A stretch of DNA of 64,000 bases from contig NZ_JAMQOP010000001.1 of NCBI RefSeq assembly GCF_031624495.1, positions 1,364,001 through 1,428,000 of the forward strand. Direction: 5' to 3'. The position numbers and the translations under genes are program-made. The notes beneath the pieces were generated by a model. That model was not told the DNA's origin, did no database searches, and saw only the letters and a list, made by a program, of their open reading frames with translations. The DNA comes from Halogeometricum sp. S1BR25-6. Its GTDB lineage: Archaea > Halobacteriota > Halobacteria > Halobacteriales > Haloferacaceae. Positions 12,885 through 34,964 of this stretch are shown here, one piece after another (positions within the stretch are counted from its first letter, which is position 1; each line of letters starts with the position of its first letter).

Positions 12885-13949
12885 TCACTTCGTCAGTCGC
12901 TCGGCGATGCGCCGGGCGCCCTCGGCGGGTGCGAGGTCCGGCCGGTCCGCCGAGGTGGCCTCGACGTCGCGGTTCAGTTCCTCCGAGAGGCGCGTCTCGA
13001 ACTCCTCGACGATGCCGGGGATGCACGCCATCCCGCCGGTGAGGACGATGGGCTTCGAGAGGGCGAGTTGGTAGGGCTTCATGTGGTCGTTCGCCAACTC
13101 CGCGAGGAAGTTGTTCGCCACCTCGTCGACGGCGTCGTCGAGGTAGTCGTCCAGCGGTTCCATCACGGAGCGCTCGATGGTGAACTCGTGAGAGCCACCG
13201 CCGGGTTGCTGGATGACGTCGGTGAACGCCTCGAAGTCGTCGAAGTCGGCGTGCTCCTCTTTGTACTCGCGGGCCGTCGTCAGGTCGACGTTGACCCGCC
13301 CCTGCGTCTCCTCCTCGACGGCGTTGGCGATGCGGCGGTCCACCTCGTTGCCGGTGACGGCGCCGGAGACGAACGGCGAGAGCTGTTCGCCGTGTCGGTA
13401 CGCCGACGCTTCGAGGTTGGTCGACCCCATGTTGACGGCGACGAACACGCTGTCGATGGCCTCCAACTCGTCGCCGAAGGCGGGAATCGCTCCGCAGAGC
13501 GACTCGGGGAAACTCCGGACTAAGGCGCCCCCCACGGGGCTCTCCTCGATAACGCTGTTGAGGTTCTTCAGACCGGGTTCGTTGTCGATGGTCGGAATCG
13601 CGTAGACCACGGCGCTGTCGGCGTCGAGGCCGTTCGTGTTCACGAGTTCGGTAAAGAACTTCTGGGCTAAGGCGGCCCCCTCGTCGTCCTCCGGTAACCC
13701 GGAGCGGAGCATGTACTCCACTCTGTCCGGGTACTCCTGTGCGGCCTGCTCCCCGTACAGGACGCGTTCGTCGCCGGTTATCGGGTCCTCGTACGTCGCG
13801 AGGCAGGTGAGCGTCCGAACCGTCTTCAGTTCGTTATCGTCGTCGTAAAACTGGAGTACGGTCCGCGTGCTCCCCAGTTTGACCCCGACGGGCGTCGGGC
13901 CGTTTTCGTCGTCGAACGATGCGTCTTTGTCAGTTCCATCCTCCACCAT
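12885..13949 (-). CDS. Actin-superfamily protein, salactin/volactin-like
   Basis: 354 aa. The fold of actin/MreB/Hsp70 ATPases is visible: phosphate-1-like VGVKLGSTRTVLQF at residues about 21-34, a second strand-turn FVAVNMGSTNLEASAYRHGE near residue 168 (phosphate-2), and the adenosine motif IVLTGGMACIPGIVEEF near residue 301. The C-terminus RRIAERLTK follows. Haloarchaea have actin homologues such as salactin (Halobacterium) and volactin (Haloferax) that affect shape and motility; assignment to that group is inference from size and organism. An upstream TATA-like ACTTTTATCC (about 13967-13976) gives a short leader with GGAGGGG before the ATG. Confidence 0.72.
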   Translation of the reverse strand: MVEDGTDKDASFDDENGPTPVGVKLGSTRTVLQFYDDDNELKTVRTLTCLATYEDPITGDERVLYGEQAAQEYPDRVEYMLRSGLPEDDEGAALAQKFFTELVNTNGLDADSAVVYAIPTIDNEPGLKNLNSVIEESPVGGALVRSFPESLCGAIPAFGDELEAIDSVFVAVNMGSTNLEASAYRHGEQLSPFVSGAVTGNEVDRRIANAVEEETQGRVNVDLTTAREYKEEHADFDDFEAFTDVIQQPGGGSHEFTIERSVMEPLDDYLDDAVDEVANNFLAELANDHMKPYQLALSKPIVLTGGMACIPGIVEEFETRLSEELNRDVEATSADRPDLAPAEGARRIAERLTK

Positions 13950-15080: not shown

Positions 15081-15115
15081 GATAAACTTGCCCCCGAGAA
15101 TATCAGTTCGGATAA
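15081..15115 (-). promoter_or_regulatory. Shared motility promoter element, copy before the ArlD/E gene
   Basis: Read on the minus strand: left arm TTATCC, four bases, right arm TGATATT, exactly 12 bases (CTCGGGGGCAAG), TATA box TTTATC at 15086-15081. Five other copies in this locus have the same order and the same 12-base gap. The transcript would start near 15055, giving a leader of about 78 bases before the ATG at 14977. Confidence 0.7.
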
Positions 15116-17423: not shown

Positions 17424-17458
17424 TATAAACCCTTCCCCCTCATTATCAACGATGATAC
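17424..17458 (-). promoter_or_regulatory. Shared motility promoter element, copy before cheY
   Basis: On the minus strand: left arm GTATCA, four bases, right arm TGATAAT, then 12 bases, then TATA box TTTATA (17429-17424). This copy has the most perfect dyad. It would drive cheY-cheC-cheD. Confidence 0.75.
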
Positions 17459-17501: not shown

Positions 17502-18065
17502 TCAGTCCCGCTCGGACGGAGGAAGTTGGAGTCCCTCGCCGGCCAGCGCCTCGATGAGGTCCGCGATGGAGTCGTCGGGCGTCAACCCGTGGTCGCGGAG
17601 CACGGGTGCCAGCACTTTGGTCGGAAACGTCACCTCCGTGTTCGAGGCGAGGAGGAGGATGCCCAACACCTCGGCGTCCGACGCGTCGGTGTCCACCTGT
17701 TCGGCGTACCACGCCGCGATGTCTCCGAACGCCGCGGCGACGTCGTCGGAGAAGTGCTCTCGGTGCTCGACGGAGCCGTCGAACGCGGCCGTGAGCGAGA
17801 AGCCGTAGGCGGCGTCCCGGTCGGAGACGTACCTGCTCGCCTGCTGTGCGGCGAACGTTCCGCGTTCCTCCACGGTGCGGTCGTCTTCGGTCGCCTCCTC
17901 GGCGTCGACCGTCGGGGTACCGTCCTGATCGGTGGCGACGACGAAGCGCCCGCCCCCGAGGTCAGCGACCCGGTCGCTCCCCGTGTAGTCCAACTCTCTC
18001 GGTCCGACGACACCCTCGCCGTCTCGACGGGAGGACGCTTCGTCTGGAGGGTCGTCGGACGTCAT
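17502..18065 (-). CDS. DUF7500-type protein inside the motility locus
   Basis: 187 aa. Contains GGGRFVVATDQDGTPTVD, a central helical/strand domain YGFSLTAAFDGSVEHREHFS, WYAEQVDTDASDAEVLGILL and a C-terminal helix pair LRDHGLTPDDSIADLIEALA. No signal or membrane segment. It is a paralogue of the protein at 10740-11216. Function is unknown; its conserved position between cheY and the archaellins suggests a motility-related role. A TATA-like CTTAATAG lies just upstream of the start. Confidence 0.75.
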   Translation of the reverse strand: MTSDDPPDEASSRRDGEGVVGPRELDYTGSDRVADLGGGRFVVATDQDGTPTVDAEEATEDDRTVEERGTFAAQQASRYVSDRDAAYGFSLTAAFDGSVEHREHFSDDVAAAFGDIAAWYAEQVDTDASDAEVLGILLLASNTEVTFPTKVLAPVLRDHGLTPDDSIADLIEALAGEGLQLPPSERD

Positions 18066-18184: not shown

Positions 18185-18203
18185 GTTATCTCATTAGGAT
18201 AAC
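18185..18203. promoter_or_regulatory. Perfect inverted repeat upstream of the small HTH gene
   Basis: GTTATC and its complement GATAAC are separated by seven bases (TCATTAG), 42-60 bases before the ATG of the HTH gene at 18245. The TATC/GATA half-sites are those of the shared motility element, but with a seven-base instead of six-base inner spacer and no TATA at the usual distance. It may be an autoregulatory operator. Confidence 0.5.
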
Positions 18204-18244
18204 CAACACATTCACATCAACTCACGACAGAGATATCTCCGTCT

Positions 18245-18583
18245 ATGGAGTCTGACAGGACCCTCGCAGCGCTCGGCAACGAATACAACCCCGATATCTT
18301 ACGCGCCGCGGACGAACCGCACTCCGCACAGGAGTTCAGTAACATGCTCGACATTCCGATCGCGACGTGCTATCGGCGCATCGAGGAACTCACGGCCGCG
18401 GGCCTCCTCGAACTCCACGACAGGGTCCTCTCGGACGAACACCGACGAACGAACGTCTACCGGCGCGAGGTCGACGAAATCGTCATCGAGTTCGACGGAC
18501 AGGAGTGCAACGTCCAAGTGACCGAGCGCCCCGAAGTGAAGAACAAACTCGACGACGTCTGGCGGAAGATCGCGCAGGATTAG
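18245..18583 (+). CDS. Small winged-helix (ArsR-like) regulator within the archaellum locus
   Basis: 112 aa. The helix-turn-helix is SAQEFSNMLDIPIATCYRRI with following helix EELTAAGLLELHD, then a basic wing (SDEHRRTNVYRREVDEI) and a C-terminal beta/helix tail (PEVKNKLDDVWRKIAQD) typical of dimerising haloarchaeal HTH proteins. No metal-binding cysteine set. It sits between the DUF7500 gene and the archaellins, has a dyad upstream of itself, and lies 117 bases from the archaellin promoter element. It is therefore my prime candidate for the factor that reads the shared element; that link is inference. Confidence 0.82.
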   Translation: MESDRTLAALGNEYNPDILRAADEPHSAQEFSNMLDIPIATCYRRIEELTAAGLLELHDRVLSDEHRRTNVYRREVDEIVIEFDGQECNVQVTERPEVKNKLDDVWRKIAQD

Positions 18584-18700: not shown

Positions 18701-18735
18701 TTCTCATCTGAGATAATCGGGACCGTAGGATTATG
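18701..18735 (+). promoter_or_regulatory. Shared motility promoter element, copy before the archaellins
   Basis: Left arm TTCTCA, four bases, right arm AGATAAT, 12 bases (CGGGACCGTAGG), TATA-like ATTATG at 18730-18735. From GATAATCGGG through the TATA box it is nearly the same as the cheW copy. The transcript would begin near 18760. Confidence 0.7.
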
Positions 18736-20253: not shown

Positions 20254-21036
20254 CTACTCTAAGTCGCCTTCTTCGCCGAACCACGGCGGCGACTCGCCGA
20301 CCATCGAGAAACCGGCGGCCTGCTCGTAGATCTGAATACCGCCCTCGTCGATTTCGAGGGGAAACATCGAGTTCTTGATGGACTGCTTTCGCATCTTCGC
20401 CACCCAGACGTACCGGTTACTCGTCGCGCCGGCGGGGCTTTGAATCAGATAGATGTTCCCGTCGGTGAGGAAGTTCTCCAGTCCGATTTCGGTCTCGGGG
20501 AAGATGGCCGACTGCTCGGTGGTCAGAAGCGATGTCAGTCCGCTGTCCTTCAGGATGTCGATGAACTTTAGGAGGTACTGTCGCTGCTCTTTCTCCTCTT
20601 CGAAGAACAGTTGGAACATCGTCAGCGAGTCGAGAACGAGTCGGTCGTAGGAGGTGTCCTGCAGGTCGCCGAGGATGCGGTCGAGCGTGGAGGAGAAGTC
20701 GCCGTCCCGCAGGAGGGCGCGCTTGTCGTACACCTTGATCTTTCCCTCCTCGACGTACTCCGACCACCGGTCGAAGCCGATGGACTCCGCGGCTTCGCGG
20801 ATGTCGTCTTCGGTTTCCTCGAAGGTGAGGTAGATTCCCCCCTCGTCGTACTTGTCGACGCCGTTGTAGAGATACTGGAGACCGAGGATACTCTTTCCCG
20901 TTCCGGGGTTGCCGCTGATGAGTACCGCGGCGTTCCGTACGATGCCGCCGTTGAGGATGGAGTCGAGGCCTTCGACTCCGGTTTTGACGAGCTCTGGCAT
21001 AGATGATGACTCCGTGTAGACTATCGGTTCGCTCAT
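20254..21036 (-). CDS. KaiC/RecA-type ATPase of the archaellum locus
   Basis: 260 aa, single KaiC-like domain. Walker A GNPGTGKS at residues 42-49, catalytic Glu pair in TFEETEDD at about 71-78, Walker B LVLDS at about 133-137. It resembles ArlH, which is encoded separately at 23592, but is more like stand-alone KaiC/RAD55-like ATPases. It is divergent from arlCE and convergent with archaellin 2. Possible roles are regulation of assembly or signalling; none is proven. ATG 21036 is chosen because GGGTGGA lies before it; residues upstream in the frame are antisense to arlCE. Confidence 0.85.
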   Translation of the reverse strand: MSEPIVYTESSSMPELVKTGVEGLDSILNGGIVRNAAVLISGNPGTGKSILGLQYLYNGVDKYDEGGIYLTFEETEDDIREAAESIGFDRWSEYVEEGKIKVYDKRALLRDGDFSSTLDRILGDLQDTSYDRLVLDSLTMFQLFFEEEKEQRQYLLKFIDILKDSGLTSLLTTEQSAIFPETEIGLENFLTDGNIYLIQSPAGATSNRYVWVAKMRKQSIKNSMFPLEIDEGGIQIYEQAAGFSMVGESPPWFGEEGDLE

Positions 21037-21110
21037 CGGGGTTCCACCCGGATAATTCTTCTCACACGCTCGATGTACCCCACGGGACGGCGACGGCGCC
21101 TCGAAATATC

Positions 21111-21145
21111 GTATCACCACTGATAATTTGGTGGGAACATTCTTG
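21111..21145 (+). promoter_or_regulatory. Shared motility promoter element, copy before arlCE
   Basis: Left arm GTATCA, four bases, right arm TGATAAT, 12 bases, then TTCTTG in the TATA position. The arms match the cheY copy exactly; the TATA is weaker. Transcript start would be near 21170, a leader of about 135 bases. No TATA occurs at the equivalent place on the other strand, so orientation is toward arlCE. Confidence 0.62.
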
Positions 21146-21304
21146 TACCGATGACTGTTCATCTGAGTCAATGCTACCTGTTTCCCCGACGTCGGAGTAC
21201 CCGTCCGGCCGGGAGTCGACGCGACGTCGGTGTGAGGGCCGTTCGTCGCCGTCGGACGGCCCGAGGGTCGAAACGGCTCGTCGCACGCAACGGAGGCGAG
21301 TCGG

Positions 21305-22702
21305 ATGGGAATGACCGACTGGATACACGGGGAGGACGAGGAGACGCGTTCGGTTGAGGAGGGCACGGGCCTCGCCACCGACGGCCTCGGCTTCGACGAG
21401 GACCTCGAGGACTTCGGAGACGACTTCGGCGACTTCGGAGACGACTTGGCGGGGTTCGACGACGAGGACGAGGAGTACGACGAATTCAGCGGCGGCGGCG
21501 CCGTCGACTCGGAAGCCGTCGCCGACCTCGAAGACCGCGTCTCCGACCTCGAAAACGAGGTCAGCGCGACGTCCTCCGGGATGAACACCGTTCGCGAGGA
21601 GAACAAACAGATCGGCGAGACCGTCGAGGAACTCGACGACACCATCCGGAAACTGCTCGACATCTACGAGATGGTCACCCGCGGCATCAACCCGTTCGTC
21701 GACGACGCCCGCGAGATGGGCGGTCTGGAGGGCGGCGGCTCGTTCGGCCTGTTCGAGGCCGAAGAGGAGAAAGAAGAGCACCTCGACCCCGACGTCGCCA
21801 GCGCGGACGCCGAGAGCTTCTTCGACGAGGACTTCGGCGAACTCGGCGCCGACGAGGCGGCCGAGGAGGCCGAGTTGGCCGCCGAGGACGAACTCGCCGG
21901 GAACGAACGGGACGACCCCTCCGAGATACTCGGCGAGGAGGACCCCATGGTTGAGGACGACGCGGAATCCGCCGCCGGCGGATCGAGCTTCGACGACCTG
22001 AAAGCCGAGTACGAGGAGGACGACGGCTGGGACGAAGAAGCGGTCGACGACGAACCGCTCGACGCCGACGACCTGGCGGTCGGGGACGACGACGTTCCGA
22101 CGACCGAGGAGATTCTCGGCGAAGAGAACGAGGACGAGACCGAAGACGAGGACGAGTCGGAAGCGGAGACGGTCGACGACATCGGGGAACCGGACGCAGA
22201 GTCCGACGCGGACGCCGGGCCGTTCGAGTTCGCCGAGACCGACTCCGAACCGGCGGCCGAGGACGCCGAGGCGACCGCCGCGCCGGCCGACCGGTCGGCG
22301 GGCGACGCGAGCGAGGACGCCGCCGCGGATACGGATGCCGATGCGGCCGCAGACACGGACGCGGATGTCTACCTCGCGACCCTCCCGGCGAGTTACGTCG
22401 CCGAGTCGGTGGCGCTGGAGTGGACGCAGTTTCTCGTCTCCGTCGGCGGCGCCATCGGCGCCGCCCGCGCGCTCCGCCAGTACCGCGAACAGGAGTGGAT
22501 CTCCCGTCCCGTCGAACGGCAGATGAACGCGCACGTCCGCAACGCCGCCTCGGCGACGACGGCGGAGGAACCGCAGGACCTGCGCGTCGAACACCACAAA
22601 GAGAGCCTCACGTACGTCAGTCGCCTCGCCGGCGACGTCGCCGAGGCGCGTCTGCTCGAGGCGCTGTCGCACCGAGGAGGGACCCGTGGGCTTCGGCGTT
22701 AG
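21305..22702 (+). CDS. arlCE: ArlCE fused archaellum motor/switch protein
   Basis: 465 aa. An ArlC coiled-coil part (VADLEDRVSDLENEVSATSS then ENKQIGETVEELDDTIRKLL, ending YEMVTRGINPF) near residues 75-145, a very acidic disordered linker of about 200 residues, and a C-terminal ArlE domain (TLPASYVAESVALEWTQFLV to LEALSHRGGTRG) from about residue 360. ArlCE is euryarchaeal and is the cytoplasmic platform that receives CheF/CheY-P. The ATG 21305 has GGAGG eight bases upstream; ATG 21311 is also possible. It overlaps arlF by 17 bases. Confidence 0.93.
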   Translation: MGMTDWIHGEDEETRSVEEGTGLATDGLGFDEDLEDFGDDFGDFGDDLAGFDDEDEEYDEFSGGGAVDSEAVADLEDRVSDLENEVSATSSGMNTVREENKQIGETVEELDDTIRKLLDIYEMVTRGINPFVDDAREMGGLEGGGSFGLFEAEEEKEEHLDPDVASADAESFFDEDFGELGADEAAEEAELAAEDELAGNERDDPSEILGEEDPMVEDDAESAAGGSSFDDLKAEYEEDDGWDEEAVDDEPLDADDLAVGDDDVPTTEEILGEENEDETEDEDESEAETVDDIGEPDAESDADAGPFEFAETDSEPAAEDAEATAAPADRSAGDASEDAAADTDADAAADTDADVYLATLPASYVAESVALEWTQFLVSVGGAIGAARALRQYREQEWISRPVERQMNAHVRNAASATTAEEPQDLRVEHHKESLTYVSRLAGDVAEARLLEALSHRGGTRGLRR

Positions 22703-34929: not shown

Positions 34930-34964
34930 CTTAAACGCTCCCCGACGATACTCACGTCTGATAA
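34930..34964 (-). promoter_or_regulatory. Shared motility promoter element, minus-strand reading toward cheB
   Basis: On the minus strand: left arm TTATCA, four bases, right arm TGAGTAT, 12 bases (CGTCGGGGAGCG), TATA-like TTTAAG at 34935-34930. It uses the same dyad as the cheW promoter, read in the opposite direction, so the element is bidirectional here. Confidence 0.6.

Follow-up and report, generated by a model that had tools for sequence, protein, structure and literature searches.

The window, that is the whole 64,000-nucleotide stretch of Halogeometricum sp. S1BR25-6 DNA that was analysed, contains a locus of arl and che genes. Within it, an open reading frame on the forward strand (18245–18583) with an ATG start codon encodes a 112-aa protein. 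Its codon-position GC content (0.66/0.35/0.81) follows the haloarchaeal pattern, and the protein gives a significant match to the ArsR-type helix-turn-helix of Pfam HTH_20 (34.9 bits against a curated cut-off of 27 bits). DUF7500, cheY, cheC, cheD and arlD lie to the left of the gene, and two archaellins, a KaiC-like cirA and arlCE-F-G-H-I-J lie to the right. An earlier note on this DNA had placed the gene between cheY and the archaellins; the position holds, except that the DUF7500 gene (17502–18065, minus strand) also intervenes after cheY. Among 80 named haloarchaeal loci, the majority have a full-length relative beside arl/che/cirA genes, and this context, the Pfam match and synteny with HVO_1209 of Haloferax volcanii mark the gene as the csmR orthologue. 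In this member of the Halobacteria, the gene for the small 112-aa winged-helix protein stands next to arlA and cirA. The cirA-like gene (20254–21663, minus strand; Pfam KaiC) is a csmR neighbour in most relatives, a linkage that holds across most loci, those of genomes without ArlH included (L069–L126; G015 C1:2047567 and 2048178; G018 C47:30034 and 29319). A Salactin gene at 12885–13949 (Pfam Salactin, 607 bits) likewise borders the arl/che genes in relatives belonging to Haloferax, Halogeometricum and Halobellus; its promoter region contained no CsmR element in the 19 loci examined.

An AlphaFold2 model of the protein, calculated from 18 relatives, has a mean pLDDT of 78.6, with the C-terminal 15 residues poorly predicted. 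The best Foldseek match of the model was 2P4W, Phr of Pyrococcus furiosus (ArsR family; E 9.6e-05, TM 0.71 on the query), which the published study of CsmR likewise found (PMC13286277). Further matches were to ArsR, Fur and related winged helices, CzrA, CadC and NolR among them. The protein combines an ArsR-type (HTH_20) winged helix with an ArsR-like fold. The Lrp/AsnC label used in PMC13286277 finds no support in the Pfam, PDB profile and fold searches made here. Neither the AsnC-type HTH nor the C-terminal RAM domain that define Lrp/AsnC proteins was matched by Pfam, no Lrp was found among the 50 best fold matches, and the PDB profile search gave no Lrp chain an E value better than 0.69.

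Six arl and che promoters of the window (arlD, cheY, arlA, arlCE, cheB and cheW) share the element TATCA(N4)TGATA, which lies upstream of BRE/TATA with a gap of exactly 14 bp to the TATA-like box. On the minus strand, the elements of arlD (TATCCGAACTGATA, 15101–15114) and of cheY-cheC-cheD (TATCATCGTTGATA, 17444–17457) are followed at this distance by TTTATC and TTTATA respectively. On the plus strand, those of the archaellins (TCTCATCTGAGATA, 18702–18715) and of arlCE-F-G-H-I-J (TATCACCACTGATA, 21112–21125) precede ATTATG and TTCTTG. One further element (34950–34963) is shared by the divergent cheW (plus strand, TTTATG) and cheB (minus strand, TTTAAG) and is 14 bp from either TATA box. The same gap was seen at 45 of 47 distinct cheY sites, 17 of 17 arlD sites and 40 of 40 arlCE sites in the 80 named loci, and the inner spacer is N4 in 242 of 341 target promoters, N5 in two and N3 in none; the loci are related, so these counts are not independent. 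The arlA sites of relatives keep the same frame (xTTATG). The dyad centre of the element is 21 bp, or two helical turns, from the start of the TATA box, just upstream of the BRE.

From position and half-site, the earlier note proposed the 112-aa protein as the factor for this element. The identification is correct and already published. CsmR (HVO_1209) of Haloferax volcanii, reported in June 2026, is a 13-kDa winged-helix protein whose gene lies upstream of arlA1/arlA2 (PMC13286277). Deletion of HVO_1209 abolished swimming and its overexpression led to a gain of motility; the ChIP-seq motif, TATCA(N4)TGATA, was present in 50 of 65 peaks, arl and che promoters among them (PMC13286277). This motif is the shared element of the window, TATC-N6-GATA. 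No mention of HVO_1209/CsmR was found in the literature searched apart from PMC13286277. By synteny and by its near relatives, on which the orthology rests, the 112-aa protein represents CsmR in this genome. Element binding and the requirement for swimming are data from H. volcanii and are predicted for the protein of the window. The regulator's identity is supported by a gene order matching that of HVO_1209, by the ChIP-seq motif in H. volcanii and by the way the element tracks the presence of csmR across genomes.

In 60 related genomes, which are not independent observations, csmR is present in 36 of the 38 that are ArlH-positive and in 13 of the 22 that are ArlH-negative (Fisher P 0.001). 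In 32 csmR-positive genomes the composite element gave 121 matches, against 7 for a control pattern, whereas 11 csmR-negative genomes showed no enrichment (5 matches against 4). One genome with arl genes and no csmR (G014) has a 38-kb arl region without any element within one mismatch. Sequence comparison supports the view that the composite element varies together with csmR. In the window's own genome, three transducer genes are among the composite matches that lie outside the window.

The best explanation overall, to which we assign a probability of about 0.92, is that the gene is csmR, that its product binds the arl/che elements and that an inverted repeat at 18185, discussed below, is not its operator. 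Our own results cover the geometry of the sites, their conservation and the way they co-vary with csmR; binding in vivo and the loss of swimming are taken from the H. volcanii literature. Most likely a CsmR dimer occupies TATCA(N4)TGATA, with one winged helix on each half-site. It would sit 14 bp upstream of TATA in the arlD, cheYCD, arlA, arlCE-J, cheB and cheW promoters, most likely touching TFB/BRE from there and setting archaellum and chemotaxis output together, along with that of several transducer genes at other places in the genome. The net sign of this regulation could be positive or negative, because deletion of csmR raises arl/che transcripts yet stops swimming (PMC13286277). An activator role, as the place of the site would suggest, agrees poorly with these RNA data. 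At every arl/che promoter CsmR might act as a plain repressor and not as a TFB-touching activator, since the transcripts that rise are exactly those of the genes with motif-bearing, strand-consistent ChIP-seq peaks (PMC13286277). However, steric repression would be unusual from a site that lies exactly two helical turns away on the upstream side of BRE/TATA, and motility is lost on deletion and gained on overexpression. We give the plain repressor a substantial chance of being right, with the odds somewhat against it.

The earlier note had also described a perfect GTTATC/GATAAC inverted repeat upstream of csmR, with a seven-base spacer and no TATA at the usual place, and had read it as the mark of an autoregulated gene. 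The repeat (18185–18203) is present as described: in GTTATC-TCATTAG-GATAAC the left half occupies 18185–18190, the right half 18198–18203, and the inner spacer is 7 bases long; a TATA box is indeed missing from its usual place. Its half-sites are indeed those of the shared element and match TATC-N6-GATA at 15101, 17444 and 21112. Perfect 6+6 dyads with a spacer of 3–12 arise in 36% of shuffles of the csmR intergenic region, so the repeat is weak evidence for a binding site. That it is a variant operator through which the 112-aa protein regulates its own gene would agree with the half-sites, with the rarity of TATC-N5..8-GATA (2.6% of shuffles of the same region) and with the real element found at csmR in other families. 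Against this, GTTATC is replaced in four congeners by GTCGTC, GTCGTC, GATGTC and GATTTC, a 7-nt inner spacer occurs in only 2 of 341 target promoters, and the right half is explained by a separate conserved block at the TATA position (GATAACCAACACATTCACAT), to which it belongs. The congener sequences and spacer counts led us to reject the repeat as a CsmR operator. Of the 23 loci in the Haloferax/Halogeometricum/Halobellus/Salinigranum group, 22 have no correct element upstream of csmR. Autoregulation through the repeat is not supported, given its species-specific left half, its spacer and these group loci. The csmR promoter of this species has no conserved operator of its own; the repeat is probably a product of chance, and a variant operator at this site is very unlikely.

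What is conserved in front of csmR is a gene-specific block, ACCAACACATTCACA (18202–18216, plus strand), which occupies the position of the TATA box and is the only exact copy in the genome. In the form ACC(AA/GT)CACATTSAC, with minor changes, it is kept in 23 loci of the Haloferax/Halogeometricum/Halobellus/Salinigranum group, and csmR of this lineage is probably driven by this TATA-less block of its own. The conserved ACCAACACATTSACA block was considered as a shared regulon element and rejected, since an exact copy was found only at csmR in the four genomes searched.

The csmR promoters of other haloarchaeal families contain a correct element in 25 of 58 upstream regions, against 0.2 expected from shuffles. 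In 16 loci, mainly from Haloarcula and its allies, only 2 bp separate TATCAN4CGATA from the TATA box of csmR (element at about −49 relative to the csmR start; L090, L092, L097, L099, L112, L126 and others). Its half-sites are fixed while N4 varies, which suggests autorepression of csmR in these lineages; the csmR promoter of Haloarcula relatives has a conserved putative operator of its own. An element 2 bp from TATA would cover the BRE, a position typical of a repressor; abutting the TATA box in this way, it probably represses csmR. Autoregulation of csmR is thus plausible in other haloarchaea, through a different and correctly spaced site. None of the autoregulation terms that we looked for is present in the main text of PMC13286277. 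In 48 of the 58 loci of other families, TGATAAC stands in the last 16 bases before the csmR ATG, its right half well kept and its left half poor; it may represent a second operator or an initiator.

Seven further csmR-like matches occur in the genome (the best with 45% identity over residues 18–98) and these paralogues could share the element, but it is highly improbable that one of them, rather than CsmR, is the main winged-helix reader of the element in this genome, as it is the csmR orthologue itself whose presence the element follows, and ChIP has proven CsmR to be the binder in H. volcanii.

Three genomes (G040, G041 and G057) have kept csmR, but none has CheF or an ArlH match above the cut-off. 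The regions read of G040 (L222, G040:C7:82000-100000) and G057 (L224, G057:C1:3100000-3119900) contain a full che operon, cheY-cheB-cheA-cheC-cheC-cheD-cheR. The composite element is found before cheY and before transducer genes in each of the three genomes. In G057 and its congener G041, a PilB3-type operon next to the che operon is preceded by a weaker element with two mismatches; in G015, which also lacks ArlH, elements precede two type IV pilins. Elements on che, transducer and probably type IV pilus genes of ArlH-less genomes suggest that CsmR serves chemosensory behaviour beyond archaella, a role we predict from these sites. Tentatively, CsmR may be an older regulator of chemosensory behaviour and not of the archaellum as such, which, where archaella were lost or never present, still controls a full che operon and transducers and perhaps also the machinery of a type IV pilus; we regard this as a conceivable history that falls short of even odds. 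A chemosensory type IV pilus system in haloarchaea without ArlH and CheF is possible and, if true, would suggest a Pil-Chp-like system in archaea. A literature search on chemosensory pili in archaellum-less haloarchaea found nothing direct.

These data extend a regulator known from one species to a whole class, with a precise promoter geometry, and predict chemosensory control without archaella. They also offer a testable split between sites at an activator position (14 bp from TATA, arl/che) and a site at a repressor position (2 bp from TATA, Haloarcula csmR). This split is relevant to the published paradox of a csmR deletion that raises transcripts and stops swimming. Among known proteins, Phr (2P4W) is the best fold match of the 112-aa protein but is longer (about 200 residues), has other targets and shares a low identity (21%). 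EarA, the archaellum activator of Methanococcus and Pyrococcus, is reported to be absent from haloarchaea and to resemble CsmR neither in sequence nor in structure, although it too is a small winged-helix protein that acts just upstream of the archaellum BRE/TATA (PMC13286277). The published account of CsmR differs from ours in assigning the protein to Lrp/AsnC, where our sequence and fold searches lead to ArsR/Phr-type winged helices, and in stating that csmR always co-occurs with archaellins in Halobacteria (PMC13286277), where we find many ArlH-less genomes with csmR. The protein of the window resembles HVO_1209 in its position upstream of the archaellins, its neighbours (cheY/C/D, arlD and cirA), its size (112 aa against about 13 kDa), its winged-helix domain, its target promoters and the motif TATCA(N4)TGATA.
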